From Streptomyces celluloflavus (GTDB lineage: Bacteria; Actinomycetota; Actinomycetes; Streptomycetales; Streptomycetaceae), in the NCBI GenBank assembly GCA_000720995.1, contig JOEL01000063.1:1-33879 (forward strand): 33,879 bases of DNA. Reading direction: 5' to 3'. Each line of letters starts with the position of its first letter. The first letter of the stretch is position 1. The notes beneath the pieces are model-generated. The model made no database searches and was not told the origin of the DNA. It saw only the letters and a program-made list of their open reading frames with translations. This document shows positions 1,178-8,653 of the stretch, in pieces. The position numbers were made by a program, and so were the translations under genes.

Positions 1178-2923
1178 CTATGTGGCGGACAGAGAGGGTG
1201 GTCGCGTCTCCTGGGCGGCGGCGCCGCGCAGTGCCCGCCGGTCCGCCGCGACCCGCGGATCGAGTACGGGCACGGCCGCCAGCAGCCCCTGGGTGTAGGG
1301 GTGCCGCGGGTGGTCGTACACGGTGTCGACCGGCCCTTCCTCCACGATCCGGCCCGCCCGCATCACCGCGACGCGGTCGCTGACCGCCCGTACGACGGCG
1401 AGGTCGTGCGCGATGAAGACCATGGCCAGGCCCAGCTCCCGCCGGAGTTCGCCGAGCAGCGCGATCACCTGCGCCTGGGTGGTCACGTCCAGCGCGGAGA
1501 CCGGTTCGTCGCAGATCAGCAGCCGGGGCGACGGGGCGAGTGCGCGGGCGATACCGACCCGTTGGCGCTGGCCGCCGCTGAACTCGTGCGGATAGCGGTG
1601 GTACCAGGCCGGGTCCAGCCCGACCCGCTCCAGCAGTTCCCGTGCGCGGCGCCCGATCCCCGCGTCGTCCAGCTCACCGGCGGCGCGCAGCGGGTCGGCC
1701 ACCGACTCGCCGATGGTGCGCCGCGGGTTGAGCGAGGAGACCGGGTCCTGGAAGACCATCTGCAACTCGCCGCGCAGGGGCCGCAGTTCGCGCTCCCCGA
1801 GGCGGCCGATGTCGCGGCCCCGGTAGCGCAGCGTGCCGGCGGTGGGGTCCAGGAGGCGTACCAGCATCCGGCCGACGGTCGTCTTGCCGCTGCCCGATTC
1901 GCCGACCAGGCCGACGGTCTCCCCGGCGCGTACGGTCAGCGAGACGTCCTGGACGGCGGTGGTCCGGCTCCCGCGCCGCCCGAACTCCCGGCGCAGACCG
2001 GTGGCTTCGAGCAGCACCTCGCCGGGGACGGGACCGGACGGGCCGGACGGGGCCGACGGCGCGGTGCGCGGCACGGGCGGCGCGGGCGGCTCCCCCGCTC
2101 CGCCGCGTACCGCGTCGATCCGTGGCACCGCCGCCAGCAGGTCCTTGGTGTAGGGCGCGCGCGGGGCGCCCAGCACCTCGCCGACCGGGCCGTGTTCGAC
2201 GGCGCGGCCGGCCCGCATCACCAGGACGTCGTCCACCCCGCCGGCCACCACGCCGAGGTCGTGGGTGACCAGGATCAGGCCCATGCCCGTCTCGGCCCGC
2301 AGGTCGTGCAGCAGGTCGAGGATCTGGGCCTGGACCGTCACGTCCAGCGCGGTGGTCGGCTCGTCGGCGATCATCAGCCGCGGCGCGCAGGCCAGCGCCA
2401 TGGCGATCAGTGCGCGCTGCCGCATCCCGCCGCTGAACTCGTGCGGCCGGGCGCGGGCGCGGCGGGCCGCGTCCGCGATGCCGACCCGGTCGAGCGCGGC
2501 GACGGCGCGGGCACGGGCGGTGCGCCGCGAGGCGTCCGGCCGGTGCACCCGGTAGACCTCGGCGATCTGGTCGCCGACGGCGTAGTACGGGTCCAGGGAG
2601 GACAGCGGGTCCTGGAAGATCATCGCGGCGGTCCCGCCGCGCAGCCGCCGCAGCCGCGGTTCCGGGGCGGTGAGCACGTCCAGGCCGTCGACGCGGACGG
2701 TGCCCTCGACCCGTGCGCCGGTGCCCCGGTGCAGGTCCAGCAGGGCGGCGGCGACGGTGGACTTGCCCGAGCCGGACTCCCCCACGATGCCCAGCGCGCG
2801 GCCGGGGGCGAGCGTGAAGGAGAGCCCGTCGACGGCCCGTACCCCGGTCCCCGGGGTGCCCGGGGCGTCGCCGGCCGGGAAGGTGACGGTGAGGTCGCGG
2901 ACCTCGACCAGTGCGGCGGTCAT
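1178..2923 (-). CDS. Peptide ABC transporter, fused double ATPase (DppD-DppF type)
   Basis: Cytoplasmic energy-coupling subunit of a dipeptide/oligopeptide importer; it hydrolyses ATP to drive the two permeases encoded just upstream. The 581-residue protein contains two complete ABC ATPase domains that are usually separate proteins. Domain 1 has Walker [10 protein letters not shown] at residues 48-56, signature SGGMRQR near 160 and Walker B/D-loop DEPTTALD near 188. A Pro/Ser/Gly-rich linker (about 260-310) leads to domain 2 with GESGSGKTT near 340, SGGQRQR near 444 and DEPVSALD near 470. Each domain ends with the oligopeptide/dipeptide extension ([24 protein letters not shown]). The ATG overlaps the permease stop codon in the ATGA arrangement, so translation is probably coupled. 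It is the last gene of the operon. Fused DppD-DppF ATPases are known in actinobacteria, and both domains look active. Confidence 0.93.
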
Positions 2924-3909
2924 CTGAGGGCCACCCTTCGGTCGGCGAGTGCGTACAGGACGTCGGCGACGGCGTTGGCGAGGACGACGGCCGCGCCGAT
3001 GCCGAGCACCGCCGCGACGACGACCGGCAGGTCCACCGTCCGCACCGACTGGACCAGCAGCTGGCCGAGGCCGGGCAGGCCGAAGAGGGTCTCGGTGAGC
3101 ATCGCGCCGCCGAACATCGTGCCGAGGTCGACGGCGTTGAGCGCGATGACCGGCGGCAGCGCGCCGCGCAATGCGTGCCGGCCGATGACCGACCGTTCCC
3201 GGACGCCGTAGGCGCGGAAGGTGCGGATATGGTCCTCGGCCAGTGTCTCCAGGGTCGAGGAGCGGGTCAGCCGGGCGTACTTGGCGGATTCCAGCAGGGC
3301 CAGCGTGGTCCAGGGCAGGAGCAGGTTCCAGGCCCACTGCTCGGGGTCCTCGGACAGCGGCACATAGGACGGGAACGGCAGCCACTGCAGGGCGGCGCAG
3401 AAGATCATCAGCAGGAGCAGTCCGGTGATGAAGACCGGGGTGGCGGTGCCGGCGAGGGTGAGTACGGTCAGCACCCGTTCGGTGATGCCGCCGCGGCGCA
3501 GCGCGGAGAGCAGTCCGGTGCCGACGCCGAGCAGCAGCCACAGCACCATCGCGCCGAACGCGAGGGAGGCGGTGACCGGCAGCCGGGCGGCGAGCAGTTC
3601 GGTGACCGGCTGGTCGTTGCGGTACGAGAGCCCGAAGCAGGGCGCCGGGCAGTGCAGTACGCCGGTTCCGGTGGAGTAGTCGCGGCCCGCCACGATGCCC
3701 TGGAGGAAGTGCAGGTACTGCGTCGGCAGGGGTTCGCCGAGGTTGAGCTGCTCGCGTACCTGGCGGATCTGTTCGGCGTTGCAGCGCGGTCCGCAGGCGA
3801 GGGTGGCGGGGTCGCCGGGGGCGACGTAGAAGAGGAGGTAGACGAGGACGGAGAGCAGGAAGAGGACGATGAGCGCGCCGCCCGCTCTGCGCAGGACGTA
3901 GCCGGTCAT
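2920..3909 (-). CDS. Peptide ABC transporter permease, DppB/OppB type
   Basis: Integral membrane subunit of the peptide importer (binding-protein-dependent transport inner membrane family), 329 residues, normal for DppB. It starts MTGYVLRRAGGALIVLFLLS, the typical first membrane segment, followed by the family motif YVAPGDPA. A large extracytoplasmic loop (about residues 35-105) contains four Cys (CGPRC and CPAPC) that could form disulfides. The EAA-like coupling loop that contacts the ATPase is around FRAYGVRERSVIGRHALRGALPP. The last transmembrane part has TETLFGLPGLGQLLVQ, another DppB hallmark. It overlaps both neighbours by four bases (ATGA), so the three genes are translationally coupled. 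The paired Cys motifs in the loop are less usual. Confidence 0.93.
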   Translation of the reverse strand: MTGYVLRRAGGALIVLFLLSVLVYLLFYVAPGDPATLACGPRCNAEQIRQVREQLNLGEPLPTQYLHFLQGIVAGRDYSTGTGVLHCPAPCFGLSYRNDQPVTELLAARLPVTASLAFGAMVLWLLLGVGTGLLSALRRGGITERVLTVLTLAGTATPVFITGLLLLMIFCAALQWLPFPSYVPLSEDPEQWAWNLLLPWTTLALLESAKYARLTRSSTLETLAEDHIRTFRAYGVRERSVIGRHALRGALPPVIALNAVDLGTMFGGAMLTETLFGLPGLGQLLVQSVRTVDLPVVVAAVLGIGAAVVLANAVADVLYALADRRVALR

Positions 3910-5021
3910 ACGGCGGCCTCCCGGGTCGGCCGGTCCGGTCCGGCGGGCGGCGCAGGTGTGTCCGCCGCTGCCGTATCCGTCACTGTCGTATCCGTCGCTG
4001 TCGTATGCGTCGCTGTCGTATGCGTCGCTGTCGTATCCGTCGCTGTCGTATGCGTCGCTCCCGTCGTGGCGGCGGCCGTGCGCCGCGCGCCCCGGGAGCC
4101 GCCGCGGGTGCCGACGCGCAGCCGGGAGCTCTCGCGCGGATCGAGGGCGGTGCGGATCGCGTCCCCCAGCACGGTGAACGCCAGGACGGTCACGAAGAGG
4201 CAGCCGGCGGGGAGCAGGACGTACAGGGGGTCGGCCCGGAACCATGTCGTGGCGGTGGACAGCATCTGGCCCCAGGACGAGGTGGGCGGGGTGACGCCGA
4301 TGCCCAGGAACGACAGCGACGCCTCGACGACGATGTTGGTCGGCACCAGGATCGCCGCGTAGGTGATCACCGGTGCGGCCAGTGCGGGCAGCAGTTCGCG
4401 CCGCGCGACCCGCCAGGGCGTGGCGCCGCCCAGCCGGGCCGCCGCCACATGGTCCAGTTTCTTCAGCGACAGCGTCTGGGCCCGCACGATCCGTGAGGTG
4501 CCGCCCCAGTTGAGCAGCCCGATGACGAGGACCAGCAGCAGCGGGCGGGGGAAGCCGACCGGTACGACGGCGGTCAGCGCGACGGCGAAGACCAGCATCG
4601 GCAGCGCCACCAGGACATCGGTGAGGCGGCTGAGGACGGTGTCGGCGAACCGGCTGCCGAAACCGGCCGCCAGGCCCACCGTGACCCCGATCAGTACCTG
4701 GACGACGGTCGCGCCGAGCGCCACCAGCAGGGAGACCCGGGCCCCGTACAGCAGCCGGGCGAACAGGTCGCGGCCGGTGCCCGGTTCGACGCCCAGCCAG
4801 TGGTCGCCGCTGATCCCGCCGTACGGGCCGACCGGCACGCCGCCGCGCGCCGAGTCGATGAGGTCGTCGTGGTAGGTGGTGGGGTCCTGGCCGGCCAGCG
4901 CCGACAGCAGGGGCGCGCCGAGGGCCAGCAGGGCGAGCACCACCAGGACGGCGGCGGCCGCGACGGCCGACGGGCGGGCCCGTAGCCGCCGCACCATCCC
5001 GGATCTCTGATATGCCGTCAT
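3906..5021 (-). CDS. Peptide ABC transporter permease, DppC/OppC type, with repeat tail
   Basis: Second membrane subunit of the importer, 371 residues. The N-terminus has one membrane segment (about residues 18-42), then the periplasmic-loop motif HWLGVEPGTGRDLFARLLYGAR typical of DppC. The EAA coupling loop is RLGGATPWRVARRELLPAL, followed by EASLSFLGIGVTPPTSSWG. ATG at 5021 was chosen because it matches the usual N-terminal length; it lies 17 bases after the binding-protein stop codon. The family normally ends soon after DPRESSRLR. Here about 60 further residues follow, dominated by Thr/Ala/His/Asp pentads encoded by a 15-bp tandem repeat. The tail should be cytoplasmic and is probably not needed for transport. 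The stop codon overlaps the next start (ATGA). Confidence 0.92.
   Translation of the reverse strand: MTAYQRSGMVRRLRARPSAVAAAAVLVVLALLALGAPLLSALAGQDPTTYHDDLIDSARGGVPVGPYGGISGDHWLGVEPGTGRDLFARLLYGARVSLLVALGATVVQVLIGVTVGLAAGFGSRFADTVLSRLTDVLVALPMLVFAVALTAVVPVGFPRPLLLVLVIGLLNWGGTSRIVRAQTLSLKKLDHVAAARLGGATPWRVARRELLPALAAPVITYAAILVPTNIVVEASLSFLGIGVTPPTSSWGQMLSTATTWFRADPLYVLLPAGCLFVTVLAFTVLGDAIRTALDPRESSRLRVGTRGGSRGARRTAAATTGATHTTATDTTATHTTATHTTATDTTVTDTAAADTPAPPAGPDRPTREAAV
3966..4055 (-). repeat. 15-bp minisatellite, six copies, in permease 3' end
   Basis: Six head-to-tail 15-base units on the plus strand, consensus CGCTGTCGTATSCGT, at 3966, 3981, 3996, 4011, 4026 and 4041. Copies differ by only one or two bases; a degenerate seventh begins at 4056. 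Read on the minus strand, each unit encodes a TAT(D/H)T-type pentad. The 15-base period keeps the frame, so copy number can vary without breaking the permease. Confidence 0.93.
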
Positions 5022-5038
5022 CTTCCGTACGCCCGGCC

Positions 5039-6778
5039 CTACTTGACCGAGACCTGGGAGATGTCGAGCACACCGTCCCAGTCGCTGATCACGATGTTCT
5101 TGACGTCCTTGCCGTAGAGCCGCTTGTAGACGGGGTGGAACAGCGGGACGGAGAGGGCCTGCGCGCCGATCTTCTTGTCCAGCGCGCCCCACCGCCGGGC
5201 GGCCGCGTCGAGGTCGGTCAGCTTGTTGATCTCGTCGATCTCCTGGTTGACGGCCTTGTCGTCGAGCTGCGCGTGGTTGAAGTTGTACGCGTCCTTGACG
5301 ATCTGCCGGCCGTCGTAGATCGGTGCGAGGAACGGTCCGCCGGACGGCCAGTCGGCGCCCCAGCCGGCGAGGAAGAGCCCCGGTTCGTCCGTGAGGCTGT
5401 GGATCTTGTTCTTGTAGTCGTTGTCCTCCAGGCCCGCCAGCTTGACGGTGATACCGGCCTTCTTGAGCGACTCCTGGACGGCGGTGGCGACTTCCGGGCT
5501 GGTGGCGAAGTTCTTGGCGGTGGAATGCGTGAGGGTGAGGGTCAGCCCGCTTTCGTGGCCCGCTTCCTTCAGCAATTCCTTTGCCTTCTCCGGATTTCCG
5601 GTGCGGCCGGCCGGGAAGGGGTCGTCGGGCGTGTAGCCGAAGGATTTCTGGTTCGGCAGGAAGGTGGTGGCGGGCTCGGCGAGGGAGGAGCCGCCGGCCG
5701 CGTTCACCACGCTCTGCCGGTTGATCGCATAGGAGATCGCCTGCCGCACCTTCGGATCGTCGAAGGGCTTCACCTTCGGGTTGAAGGCGAGGTAATTGGT
5801 GTAGCCGAAGCGGCCGGTGCCGACCCGTTTCTGCAGTTCCCTGTCGCCCGCGATCTGGGCGAGTTCGGCGGGGCCGAGGTTGGTGTCGGTGGTGACGGCG
5901 GCGGCGTCCGCGCCCGCTCCGGTGGAGAGCCGCTGGTTGATGACGGCCGGGTCGAGGCCGGAGGTCACCTCGATGGTGTCCGGATAGGCGTGCCGCTGCT
6001 TGTCCGTGCTCTGTGACCAGTGTTCGTTGCGCGCCAGCAGAATGCGCTCGCCGTCACCGGTGTTCTTGACGACCTTGTAGGGGCCCGAGGAGACGGGGTG
6101 TTCCTCGTATTTCGTGCCGGTGTCCTTGTTCCGCGGCACCGGCGCGAACTGCGTCTGCGTCGCCAGCAGCGGGAATTCCCCTTCGGGCTTCTTCAGATGG
6201 AAGACAAGGGTTTTCTTGTCGGGCGTCTCGATGGATTTCAGGCCGTCCTCGGACTTGTCCTTGTAGGGCCCCTGGTAGTCCTCGCCGCCGACCAGCCAGT
6301 CCCGCAGGTACGGGGCGCCGCCGGAGAGTTCGGCGGCGAAGGACCGCTCGATGCCGTATTTGATGTCGGCGCTGGTGATCGGCGAGCCGTCCTCGAACTT
6401 CAGGCCGTCCTTGAGGGTGTACGTCCACACGGTGGCGTTCTCGCTGGGCCGCCCGGTGTCGGTGGCGAGGTCCGGTACGGCCTTGGCGCCGGCCGCGCCG
6501 TTCTCGCGGTTGCGGGTGGTCAGCGTACGGAAGACCAGCGTCGGCACCTTGCCGCCGCCCGAGGTGTACAGGCGCGCGGGGTCGAAGTTGTTCTGCGGCT
6601 CGGAGTTCAGGACGGTCAGCGTGCCGCCCTTCTTCGGCGCGTCCCCCGCGCCGCCCCGGTCCGTGCCGTCCTTGGGTCCGCAGGCGACGGCGCCGACGGC
6701 CAGCGCGGCGGTCGTGGCGGCCGCGGCGACGCGGCGCGCGGTGGCGGACGGCTGACGGGGGTGGGCGGGCTCGGCCAT
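5039..6778 (-). CDS. Peptide ABC transporter substrate-binding lipoprotein (SBP family 5)
   Basis: Extracytoplasmic receptor that delivers peptides to the permeases encoded downstream. The 579-residue product has a signal peptide with paired Arg (SATARRVAAAATTAALAVG) and a lipobox ending AVAC, giving lipid-anchored Cys near residue 32. The mature part begins with a Gly/Lys linker and GGTLTVLNSEPQNNFDPARLY. It contains the family-5 pattern TYTLKDGLKFEDGSPITSAD, then FAFNP-like YLAFNPKVKPFDDPKVRQA and the C-terminal GWGADWPSGGPF. Length is normal for this family. ATG at 6778 gives a standard signal peptide; an upstream in-frame GTG at 6808 is possible. The ribosome-binding site is weak (GAAAGGCG). 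First structural gene of the operon, preceded by a probable leader peptide. Substrate specificity cannot be told from sequence. Confidence 0.93.
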   Translation of the reverse strand: MAEPAHPRQPSATARRVAAAATTAALAVGAVACGPKDGTDRGGAGDAPKKGGTLTVLNSEPQNNFDPARLYTSGGGKVPTLVFRTLTTRNRENGAAGAKAVPDLATDTGRPSENATVWTYTLKDGLKFEDGSPITSADIKYGIERSFAAELSGGAPYLRDWLVGGEDYQGPYKDKSEDGLKSIETPDKKTLVFHLKKPEGEFPLLATQTQFAPVPRNKDTGTKYEEHPVSSGPYKVVKNTGDGERILLARNEHWSQSTDKQRHAYPDTIEVTSGLDPAVINQRLSTGAGADAAAVTTDTNLGPAELAQIAGDRELQKRVGTGRFGYTNYLAFNPKVKPFDDPKVRQAISYAINRQSVVNAAGGSSLAEPATTFLPNQKSFGYTPDDPFPAGRTGNPEKAKELLKEAGHESGLTLTLTHSTAKNFATSPEVATAVQESLKKAGITVKLAGLEDNDYKNKIHSLTDEPGLFLAGWGADWPSGGPFLAPIYDGRQIVKDAYNFNHAQLDDKAVNQEIDEINKLTDLDAAARRWGALDKKIGAQALSVPLFHPVYKRLYGKDVKNIVISDWDGVLDISQVSVK

Positions 6779-6910
6779 GGCGGTGTTCGCCTTTCGCAGC
6801 GGGGGCACCCGCAGAAGGCGGCAGGGAGGGCGCGATGGCGCGCGAGGCCGCCCCTGCGGACGCGTGGAGAGATGCCTTACGCGGTGACGCGGGGGAATGT
6901 CCCGGCCCGG

Positions 6911-6960
6911 GGACGCGACCGGCACCGTGCCGTGTCACTCGCACGGCCGGGGCCGCGTCC
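6911..6960 (-). promoter_or_regulatory. Long hairpin in the mRNA leader of the peptide transporter
   Basis: Three successive complementary blocks: GGACGCG with CGCGTCC (7 pairs), CCGGC with GCCGG (5) and CGTGC with GCACG (5), separated by one- to three-base bulges around a ten-base loop. It begins 21 bases after the leader-peptide stop codon and lies about 130 bases ahead of the binding-protein start, where an attenuator would sit. Whether it terminates transcription or sequesters something is inference; no T-run follows. Confidence 0.55.
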
Positions 6961-6981
6961 TGGGGGAACCGGGGTGGGGCC

Positions 6982-7074
6982 TCAGCGACAGTCGATGTCG
7001 GCCACGGACTGCACGGACACGCCGATCAGCGCCAGCTCGATGGCGGCGTGTGCGGAGACGTGACGGTGCGGCAT
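6982..7074 (-). CDS. Probable 30-residue leader peptide of the peptide-transporter operon
   Basis: A short open frame starting MPHRHVSAHAAIELALIGVS and ending with ADIDCR. About nine in ten codons end in G or C, the bias of real genes here, although the frame lies in otherwise noncoding sequence. There is no ribosome-binding site, but a promoter with ideal spacing (TTGCCA, 17 bases, CAATGT) places the transcript start at the ATG itself, so translation would be leaderless. It stops 203 bases before the binding-protein gene and is followed by a strong hairpin. Actinobacteria carry short leader peptides with an RRH-type start and a Cys near the end upstream of sulfur and transport genes; the HRHV start and penultimate Cys (TGT codon) resemble these. 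A Cys-sensing attenuator is inference. It could instead be a small independent protein. Confidence 0.6.
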   Translation of the reverse strand: MPHRHVSAHAAIELALIGVSVQSVADIDCR

Positions 7075-7081
7075 GCGCAGA

Positions 7082-7110
7082 ACATTGAACGAATATTCGG
7101 TCCCTGGCAA
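7082..7110 (-). promoter_or_regulatory. Promoter of the peptide-transporter operon (leaderless)
   Basis: On the minus strand TTGCCA (5 of 6 bases of TTGACA) is followed after exactly 17 bases by CAATGT (TAnnnT-like). The predicted start is the A of the leader-peptide ATG at 7074. The -35 box overlaps the base of the upstream terminator hairpin by one base. Confidence 0.65.
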
Positions 7111-7136
7111 AGGTGTCTCGCGATGAGAGACACCTT
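7110..7136 (-). terminator. Terminator after the DUF3152 gene
   Basis: Perfect 10-bp inverted repeat AAGGTGTCTC / GAGACACCTT with a seven-base loop, 17 bases past the DUF3152 stop codon and followed on the minus strand by TTTGCC. It separates the hydrolase-DUF3152 unit from the peptide-transporter promoter. Confidence 0.75.
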
Positions 7137-7153
7137 GTCTCATCTCCGGCGGG

Positions 7154-8653
7154 TCACCGCTCGGTGGGGAACGGCCAGGAGTTGGGCCGGCAGGTCAGGC
7201 CCTTCGTCGTCAGGAACTTCGTCTGCTGCATCATCACGGGAGCGAGCGCGCCCTGCTTGGTGCAGCCCTCGTGGTTGTGTCCGAGCCGGTGGCCGACCTC
7301 GTGGTTGATCAGCATCTGGCGGTAGGCGAACAGCTCGTCGCGGCTGTAGGTCGTCGCGCCCTCCGCCCACCGGTACGCGTTGATCATGACGCGTTCGGTC
7401 GCCGCCGAATCGCAGGAGACGTTCTCCTCGGACGTGTCGAGACCCGATTTGGCACACCACACCGCGGTCGTCCCCGGGCTCGCCAGCGTGATCACGAAGT
7501 CGGCGTGGCCGGAGCCCACCCGCTGGAAGGTCCGGCGTCCGTCGTGTGCCCAGCTCCGGTCGTCGTTGAGGGTTTTGTGCACCGCGTCGGCGAACAGCTC
7601 GCCGTCCAGCGGCAGTCCGTCCTCGATGTCGACCCGATAGCGCAGCACCTGCCCGCGGCCGGGCGCCTTGGCGTCGCGGCCGACCGTCGTGAACGTGCCA
7701 CGGGCCGTCATCTTCTCGGCCAGCGGGAAGAGATGGGCCATCTTCTCGTCGTACGTGACGGGTGCGGCGTCCTTCGTCGGCCGGGCCTGCGACCGGCTGG
7801 CCTGGCCGTCGGTCCCGTCCACCCGGCCCTGCCCGCTGCTCGCCTGCGCCGCGCCGCCGTCCGCGTGCTGGTCGGCGACCTGTCCGGCGACGACCACCGC
7901 GAGCACCGTCGTCACGGCCGCGGCCGCCACACCGGTGAGCGTCCGGCCCTTGGTGCCCTTCCTGCCGCCGGTGTCCGCCCCGGCGAGCGGCTCCGCCCCG
8001 TCCGCCGCGTCCGCTGTATCCGTCACGGGCGGCCTGCCGCCCGGCGCGTCGCCGACCCGCCCGCCGTACGTATCCCCGCCGTCACCATCGCCGCCACGGT
8101 CGCGGTCCTCGGCGAACGCCTCCACGTACTCACGACGCGGCCCCGGCACCTGGCCGGACCCGGACAGCGGATTCCCGGCCACCTCGGCGCTCGGCGAACT
8201 CCCGCCCACCGAGGGCCCGTTGACCTGGCCCGTGAGCGTCCCGGCGCCTCCCGGGCCGGCGGCGGCTCCGAAGCCGTCCGCACCCACGGCACCCGGCATG
8301 CCCGGCGCACCGGGCCGGTCGCCGTACCCGCCGCCCGCCGGCTCGGGCATGCGCGGGCGGGGCACGGCCGGCACGCCGTGCGCCGGCGTCGCCGGGGGCG
8401 CGCCCCAGCCGCCGTCCGCCTCATGGCGTTCGGGCCGAAGGGCGCCGCCGCGGTGCGCGGTGCGCGGCGCGGGCACCGTCAGCCGCGGGCCGTCCGGCAT
8501 ACCGTCGCCCGCCGGGCCGCGCCGTCGGCGCCCGGACCCGGGTGCGGGTTCCCCACCGCCCGGCACGCCGTCACCGGGCCCGCCGGAAGGACCGGCCGTC
8601 CCGGGAGTCGGTGCTGCGCTCTCCGGCCGGCCTCGGCGGCTATGGCGTCCCAC
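7154..8653 (-). CDS. DUF3152 protein, membrane-anchored zincin-like
   Basis: 499-residue product starting with GTG. Residues 1-235 are a low-complexity Gly/Pro/Arg/Asp-rich cytoplasmic region. A single transmembrane helix (TLTGVAAAAVTTVLAVVVAG, about 238-257) follows. The C-terminal 180 residues are the extracytoplasmic DUF3152 domain, with INHEVGHRLGHNH near residue 450, an HExxH-like zinc-binding pattern in which the third His is in register with metzincin-type proteases. Cys at WCAKSG, SCDS, EGCTKQ and LTCRPN could pair. Metallopeptidase activity is inferred from the motif; the family is formally uncharacterised. The GTG lies eight bases past the hydrolase stop, with AGGAG inside the hydrolase end, so the two genes are coupled. 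In Mycobacterium the homologue (Rv3207c) neighbours TetR, DUF3107 and RhlE, as here. Confidence 0.9.
   Translation of the reverse strand: MGRHSRRGRPESAAPTPGTAGPSGGPGDGVPGGGEPAPGSGRRRRGPAGDGMPDGPRLTVPAPRTAHRGGALRPERHEADGGWGAPPATPAHGVPAVPRPRMPEPAGGGYGDRPGAPGMPGAVGADGFGAAAGPGGAGTLTGQVNGPSVGGSSPSAEVAGNPLSGSGQVPGPRREYVEAFAEDRDRGGDGDGGDTYGGRVGDAPGGRPPVTDTADAADGAEPLAGADTGGRKGTKGRTLTGVAAAAVTTVLAVVVAGQVADQHADGGAAQASSGQGRVDGTDGQASRSQARPTKDAAPVTYDEKMAHLFPLAEKMTARGTFTTVGRDAKAPGRGQVLRYRVDIEDGLPLDGELFADAVHKTLNDDRSWAHDGRRTFQRVGSGHADFVITLASPGTTAVWCAKSGLDTSEENVSCDSAATERVMINAYRWAEGATTYSRDELFAYRQMLINHEVGHRLGHNHEGCTKQGALAPVMMQQTKFLTTKGLTCRPNSWPFPTER

Follow-up and report, generated by a model that had tools for sequence, protein, structure and literature searches.

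A putative cysteine-sensing leader peptide ahead of a Streptomyces peptide-import operon

What signal governs a peptide-import operon of Streptomyces celluloflavus, and is that signal read by the short reading frame that lies ahead of it? The locus is part of contig JOEL01000063.1, of which positions 1–33,879 (33,879 nt, hereafter the window, to which all coordinates refer) were analysed. A first-pass annotation had pointed to a 30-codon frame with genuine codon bias, its ATG at the predicted transcript start, followed by a 17-pair hairpin and the peptide-binding-protein gene, and had proposed that ribosome stalling at the Cys codon near the stop makes the importer responsive to cysteine or sulfur. 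We put at roughly 0.66 the probability that a leaderless, cysteine-sensing leader-peptide attenuator controls the operon.

The leader peptide, its promoter and its operon

The frame matched the NCBIfam profile NF042937 ("Ms4533A family Cys-rich leader peptide") over residues 1–30 of 30, scoring 51.6 bits where the cut-off is 31. With this family it shares a promoter geometry that fits a leaderless start, a Cys beside the stop and the body motif LALI.V...VAD..C. G or C occupies the third position in 27 of the 30 codons (manual count), and the single Cys is encoded by TGT in the penultimate codon; one relative (loci L028 and L138) has ten codons after the Cys rather than one. The window peptide was not listed at E ≤ 10 by the NF042934 cis_reg_atten profile, and an Rfam search of positions 6500–7300 gave no match at E ≤ 1. 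Judged by its sequence, the frame is a leader peptide of a named cysteine-leader family, and it is less new than the first-pass annotation assumed, since the peptide already falls within that NCBI family.

The leader goes together with the peptide-import operon in the relatives whose sequences were examined. Searches for the leader and for the binding protein, run with the same settings against a sample of 150 congeneric genomes, placed NF042937 above its cut-off in 71 of them, with one leader each, and found an ortholog of the binding protein (at least 73% identity; next best 47% among the matches listed) also in 71. Both were present in 70 genomes and neither in 78 (lists matched by hand). 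Genome G118 had the leader and a binding-protein match of 72% in its locus, and G126 had the ortholog together with a leader that scored 25.6 bits, below the cut-off yet plain by eye. Approached from the leader, all 85 distinct leader loci had the orthologous binding-protein gene downstream, at a gap of 63–313 nt; approached from the gene, a leader lay within 700 nt in all 80 loci fetched (those ranking best among 229 named loci; 79 from Streptomyces records and one from Kitasatospora). The two permeases and the fused ATPase followed on the same strand in 79/79, 79/79 and 75/75 of the loci that were long enough, and the DUF3152 gene upstream was mostly retained (Table 1).

The distance from the end of the −10 hexamer to the ATG was 6–8 nt in 135 of 151 distinct loci, and in the remaining 16 the search preferred a hexamer 17–18 nt from the ATG; the tally takes the best hexamer per locus, and a shuffled control spread across all distances. 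A perfect −35 TTGACA (6 of 6) was found in 122 of the 151, the −10 CATATT in 117, and a spacer of 17 or 18 nt in 144. A Shine-Dalgarno (SD)-like 4-mer preceded the leader in one locus and the binding-protein gene in 149. A generic sigma-70 scan of the window did not list the leader promoter, because its CAATGT is a poor −10. In S. coelicolor, 21% of primary starts yield leaderless mRNAs (PMC4895711). From the promoter geometry, the leader mRNA would be leaderless and start at the A of the ATG.

The cysteine codon, the peptide body and sulfur genes

In a class-level sample of 394 genomes, NF042937 passed its cut-off in 36, of which 16 belonged to the window's genus and 20 to one other family (f6), which we take to be the Mycobacteriaceae. 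Whereas the Streptomyces members precede an oligopeptide importer, those of f6 precede a sulfate importer: all 21 leaders (the 20 and one below threshold) stood ahead of a homolog of one sulfate ABC transporter binding protein, and the three of these proteins that were tested all passed the TIGR00971 cut-off. Most f6 leaders have two to four Cys, unlike the window leader with its one. In a third actinobacterial family, a sub-threshold Ms4533A-like leader (29.9 bits) lay ahead of a sulfatase gene (PF00884; L117:2980–5561). That one leader type heads genes for peptide import, for sulfate import and perhaps for a sulfatase would otherwise be hard to explain, which argues for a shared signal; cysteine or sulfur is the likely one.

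The window's genome also holds leaders of the NF042934 type, four above the cut-off and three weaker, all seven on other contigs. The first ORFs (open reading frames) after NF042934 leaders carry PALP (cysteine synthase-like), NIR_SIR (sulfite reductase-like), rhodanese, ABC permease, flavin reductase, symporter and cysteine dioxygenase domains. The peptide motif of these leaders, HVDL.R..SA.C, differs from that of the window leader.

The Cys codon near the leader end was TGT in all 151 distinct loci, a count whose members are not independent because the loci are related. As background, 288 long ORFs from the named loci use TGT for 63 of their 644 Cys codons (9.8%), and the same leaders use it for 8 of their 153 other Cys codons. 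Among the NF042934 leaders (L205–L241, from 31 genomes) the motif Cys was TGT in 23 of 23 parsed, against 2 of 23 for their other Cys codons, and in f6 TGT stood at the Cys site or beside it in 21 of 21 leaders, with a background of 17/86. To judge from these sequences, the UGU rule holds in two families and for two peptides that are unrelated to each other. A single tRNA-Cys decodes both UGU and UGC. The theory that attenuator codons are chosen by tRNA isoacceptor (PMC1183508) does not predict a UGU rule where one tRNA serves both codons. The hairpin that includes the stop codon also pairs, in one clade, the final U of UGU, which makes RNA structure a possible contributor; the rule must be explained either by the speed of wobble decoding or by RNA structure.

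Selection on the peptide reached beyond the Cys. Counting back from that codon, the ratio of nonsynonymous to synonymous polymorphism (pN/pS) was 0.30 for codons −19 to −10 and 0.33 for −5 to −1, compared with 1.14 for −28 to −20 and 1.13 for −9 to −6. The two low blocks mark selection on the peptide itself, in the manner of an arrest peptide. Synonymous polymorphism was also lower in the first conserved block (pS 0.24 vs 0.44), which shows that a constraint on the RNA contributes too. In the four f6 leaders compared, 9–12 of 22 residues of the body were identical, 3–9 of them through different synonymous codons. A lone Cys was found in 31 of the 151 leaders, and the pair CC in 31 of the 151 loci.

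These comparisons bear out several points of the first-pass annotation. Conservation of the peptide in relatives with the operon, whose absence the annotation had named as grounds for rejecting its idea, was found. Its frame is a family member recurring in congeners with a repeated promoter-to-ATG spacing; the leader travels with the transporter; the Cys near the stop is an invariant site; the link to sulfur reappears in front of sulfate-binding-protein genes and, below threshold, of one sulfatase gene; and the leaderless spacing recurs in relatives, the start site itself being judged from promoter geometry alone.

Folding of the RNA beyond the leader

The hairpin downstream of the leader fared less well. 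It exists at 6960–6911, with 20 pairs and bulges rather than the 17 pairs first reported, and it is weakly significant (z −1.79; 10 of 200 shuffles fold equally well), unremarkable for such GC-rich sequence. A terminator scan of the window found no terminator-like site, and the hairpin lacks a U-tract. In L125, the nearest named relative (binding protein 86% identical), the sequence differs at this place and the hairpin is not recognisable by eye. The entire 315-nt leader region folded no better than its shuffles, 36 of 100 of which equalled it (z −0.19). The earlier proposal is thus partly supported: its idea holds in outline, and its hairpin, as a conserved switch, does not.

Comparative folding, which the first-pass annotation had put forward for finding alternative structures, revealed two hairpins in relatives, neither of which occurs in the window. 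The stop codon lay in an arm with a perfect partner 15–50 nt downstream in 103 of 151 loci. Where the arm was GACGC, the perfect partner GCGTC was present in 87 of 102 loci, against 11 of 49 with other arms; those other arms kept their own perfect partner in 16 of 49 loci, where 1.6 were expected, among them GACAC:GTGTC in 5/7 and GACGT:ACGTC in 5/8. By duplex energy (82 loci; L011, L105 and L107 dropped), the stop-codon helix beat shuffles in three of five clades and reached a shuffle rank ≤0.05 in 22 of the 82 loci. A terminator-like hairpin followed the leader in 52 of 149 loci, compared with 15.6 in shuffles, its stem varying by group. An antiterminator helix reached a shuffle rank ≤0.1 in 20 of 73 loci (the test did not include another 67 loci, whose stems were different), and in two of the three stem classes the clade's own partner outdid those from elsewhere. 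Both helices were 99.1% paired within a 29-sequence clade. Pausing at UGU would place the ribosome over the first arm, which is the logic of classical attenuation, and on these models the downstream RNA of many relatives looks like a transcription attenuator.

For the window itself, masking of the SD sequence is the better guess from modelling. The predicted free RNA paired E1 with E2 (mean probability 0.35) and E3 with the SD (0.74), whereas with the leader end masked E2 paired with E3 (0.61) and SD accessibility rose from 0.23 to 0.48.

Other candidate structures were set aside. A partner search before SD emergence was noisy. A 7-nt match to an exact anti-SD complement, GGUCGUC, was found in 31 of 36 loci with that SD, yet also in 21 of 45 others. 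A small hairpin within the leader, around UGU, had a mean of −4.88 against −3.47 in shuffles, but ranked ≤0.05 in 2 of 82 loci. Separately, in the clade whose SD is GAGAGGTCGTC (for example L056 and L045), the terminator-like hairpin is separated from the SD by a long non-coding stretch that is strongly conserved and reads GACGCCGGGGCAGACGTCTG...CGTCTCAC..CGTC..CGTCTC.

Table 1. Features of the leader region and the operon in the window.
Feature	Position	Strand	Details
Promoter	7082..7110	−	−35 TTGCCA 7110–7105, spacer 17 nt, −10 CAATGT 7087–7082, 7 nt to ATG
Leader peptide MPHRHVSAHAAIELALIGVSVQSVADIDCR, 30 aa, NF042937 (Ms4533A family), putatively leaderless	6982..7074	−	ATG 7074 to TGA 6982
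Sensing Cys codon TGT (putative), penultimate sense codon	6988..6990	−	TGT in 151/151 distinct loci
Element E1, stop codon and next nucleotides	6973..6984	−	Pairs with E2 in free-RNA ensemble; prediction
Large GC-rich hairpin	6911..6960	−	Folding; no U-tract; not recognisable by eye in L125
Element E2 TCCGCAGGGGCGGCCTC	6844..6860	−	Partner E1 (free) or E3 (leader end masked); prediction
Element E3 GCCGCCTTCTGCG, anti-SD	6810..6822	−	SD pairing 0.74 free, 0.05 with leader end masked; prediction
SD GAAAGG of binding-protein gene	6790..6795	−	
SBP_bac_5 peptide-binding lipoprotein	5039..6778	−	PF00496, 9.8e-79; gene start 6778
Permease (BPD_transp_1, OppC_N)	3906..5192	−	Domain match; real start probably within ORF
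Permease (BPD_transp_1, OppB-like)	2920..3957	−	Domain match
Fused double ABC ATPase (two ABC_tran, oligo_HPY)	1178..3541	−	Domain match; real start within ORF
DUF3152 protein gene, upstream of leader	7154..8653	−	Kept in 63/73 loci

Between the end of the DUF3152 gene (7154) and the leader promoter lies a 10-bp inverted repeat, AAGGTGTCTC...GAGACACCTT, at 7110–7136, whose final base also opens the −35 box. It could be the terminator of the DUF3152 gene or an operator. Several relatives of the same clade have GAGACAYC-like letters at the same position.

A cysteine-responsive attenuator and its alternatives

From these sequence patterns we infer ribosome pausing, cysteine as the signal, expression at low cysteine and an RNA switch. 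RNA polymerase would begin the transcript with the A of the ATG. A ribosome would load at its 5′ end, translate 28 codons and then meet one obligatory Cys codon, UGU, right before the stop. At low levels of charged Cys-tRNA the ribosome would pause at UGU, covering the first nucleotides past the leader; the paused ribosome would alter the folding of the downstream RNA, and the importer operon would be expressed. The leader would in this way probably switch the importer on at cysteine shortage.

Several observations weigh against this reading. A single obligatory Cys codon is predicted by theory to make a less sensitive sensor (PMC1183508). The energy of the stop-codon helix was not above shuffles in the window's clade or in one other (rank ≤0.05 in 2/12 and 0/9 loci); the local partner of the stop codon is mostly absent from the window's clade and absent from the window, and in one stem class the partners from other clades gave a stronger helix than its own partner did. 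An antiterminator between the stop-codon and terminator-like hairpins is only mildly supported by the modelling, and there were no two-sided changes in the 29-sequence clade. As to the SD, its sequestration was not above shuffles in the 82-locus duplex test except in one clade. When masking of the leader end was simulated in 83 of the 85 loci (L107 and L011 were dropped for uncertain gene starts), mean SD accessibility went from 0.18 to 0.17, rising by more than 0.2 in two loci and falling by more than 0.2 in three; SD masking is not a general switch. Six relatives folded in the same way as the window gained no more than 0.02 in SD access, L128 losing some, so the window's own fit may be due to chance. 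Finally, one NF042934 leader precedes a gene with a cysteine dioxygenase domain (L205:1551–2186), an awkward case for expression at low cysteine.

How far do these points favour other explanations? A short frame in GC-rich intergenic DNA might be a chance ORF or a piece of a longer protein, a notion that the NF042937 match, recurrence in congeners, linkage to the operon from both sides and codon-level selection refute almost completely. The leader could instead report general amino-acid or translation stress, through His or any slow decoding, given that its N-terminal part contains His3, His5 and His9. We consider this very unlikely, since codons −28 to −20 are not conserved, the Cys is invariant, and most f6 relatives have more than one Cys, with all 21 of their leaders ahead of sulfate genes.

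Two further explanations keep the leader and change what it does. The leader might be a nascent-chain arrest peptide, its conserved body (AAIELALIGV...VAD) acting from within the exit tunnel and jointly with the terminal Cys to stall the ribosome, so that cysteine or another sulfur metabolite is sensed via the peptide and not merely by slow decoding of one codon. Purifying selection on two blocks with a free stretch between them, a body common to f6 leaders partly through different synonymous codons, and the sufficiency of one Cys in 31 of 151 leaders fit such arrest, while the lowered pS in the same block shows the RNA to be constrained as well; on balance we find arrest of this kind somewhat unlikely as the explanation. 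Alternatively, translation of a plain leader might shield the nascent RNA from Rho or couple to the gene, with no specific hairpin switch in the window's clade. The window's lack of a U-tract terminator, its ordinary folding and the hairpin's absence by eye from L125 speak for this, and an earlier proposal invoked Rho at the cys leaders of mycobacteria (PMC1262725); in other Streptomyces, however, stop-codon and terminator-like hairpins exceed chance, and we regard a plain leader as unlikely. We keep to the cysteine-sensing attenuator, at the probability given at the outset.

Leaders of this kind have precedents. Canestrari et al. (2020; doi 10.1111/mmi.14498) reportedly described polycysteine leaderless short-ORF attenuators of mycobacteria, which are cysteine-responsive and in which ribosome pausing is said to free a downstream ribosome-binding site. 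By such accounts they too are leaderless short ORFs with Cys codons at the end and sulfur-supply genes downstream, whereas the window leader has one Cys in place of a run and precedes a peptide importer. The 2020 work is cited in PMC9094748 and PMC13236596; cysteine leaders of mycobacterial cys operons had been predicted in 2005, without terminators (PMC1262725), and conserved Cys-rich leaderless frames were observed in 2015 (PMC4633059), so the kind was already known. Classical trp, leu and ilv attenuators likewise combine a leader ORF bearing a regulatory codon with hairpins, which here follow in many relatives; they differ in that the leader described here has a single obligatory regulatory codon and the window lacks a U-tract terminator. 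In a limited literature search we found no description of an association with peptide import, of a single-Cys form whose body is conserved, or of the UGU rule. An S. lividans study lists eight leader peptides, none of them assigned to cysteine in the excerpt available (PMC8079986). In its Table 4, the metL leader, which belongs to a methionine importer, has several Cys codons at its end (GARCMCRRMCAF); though interpreted there as a methionine leader, it may be one for cysteine.

A broader picture, which we offer tentatively as a possibility, is a single ribosome-read cysteine-leader regulon of actinobacteria, in which the sensing codon has to be the rare UGU rather than UGC in every leader family, the stall in the Ms4533A family is strengthened by the conserved nascent chain, the module has moved among sulfate-import, peptide-import and sulfatase genes, and the "general" peptide permease of Streptomyces is a dedicated sulfur scavenger. 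The UGU rule is the sharper point of the finding. The leader would serve as a cheap marker for sulfur-scavenging operons, and a transporter that annotation otherwise labels a generic peptide permease would gain a specific, testable signal in cysteine shortage.

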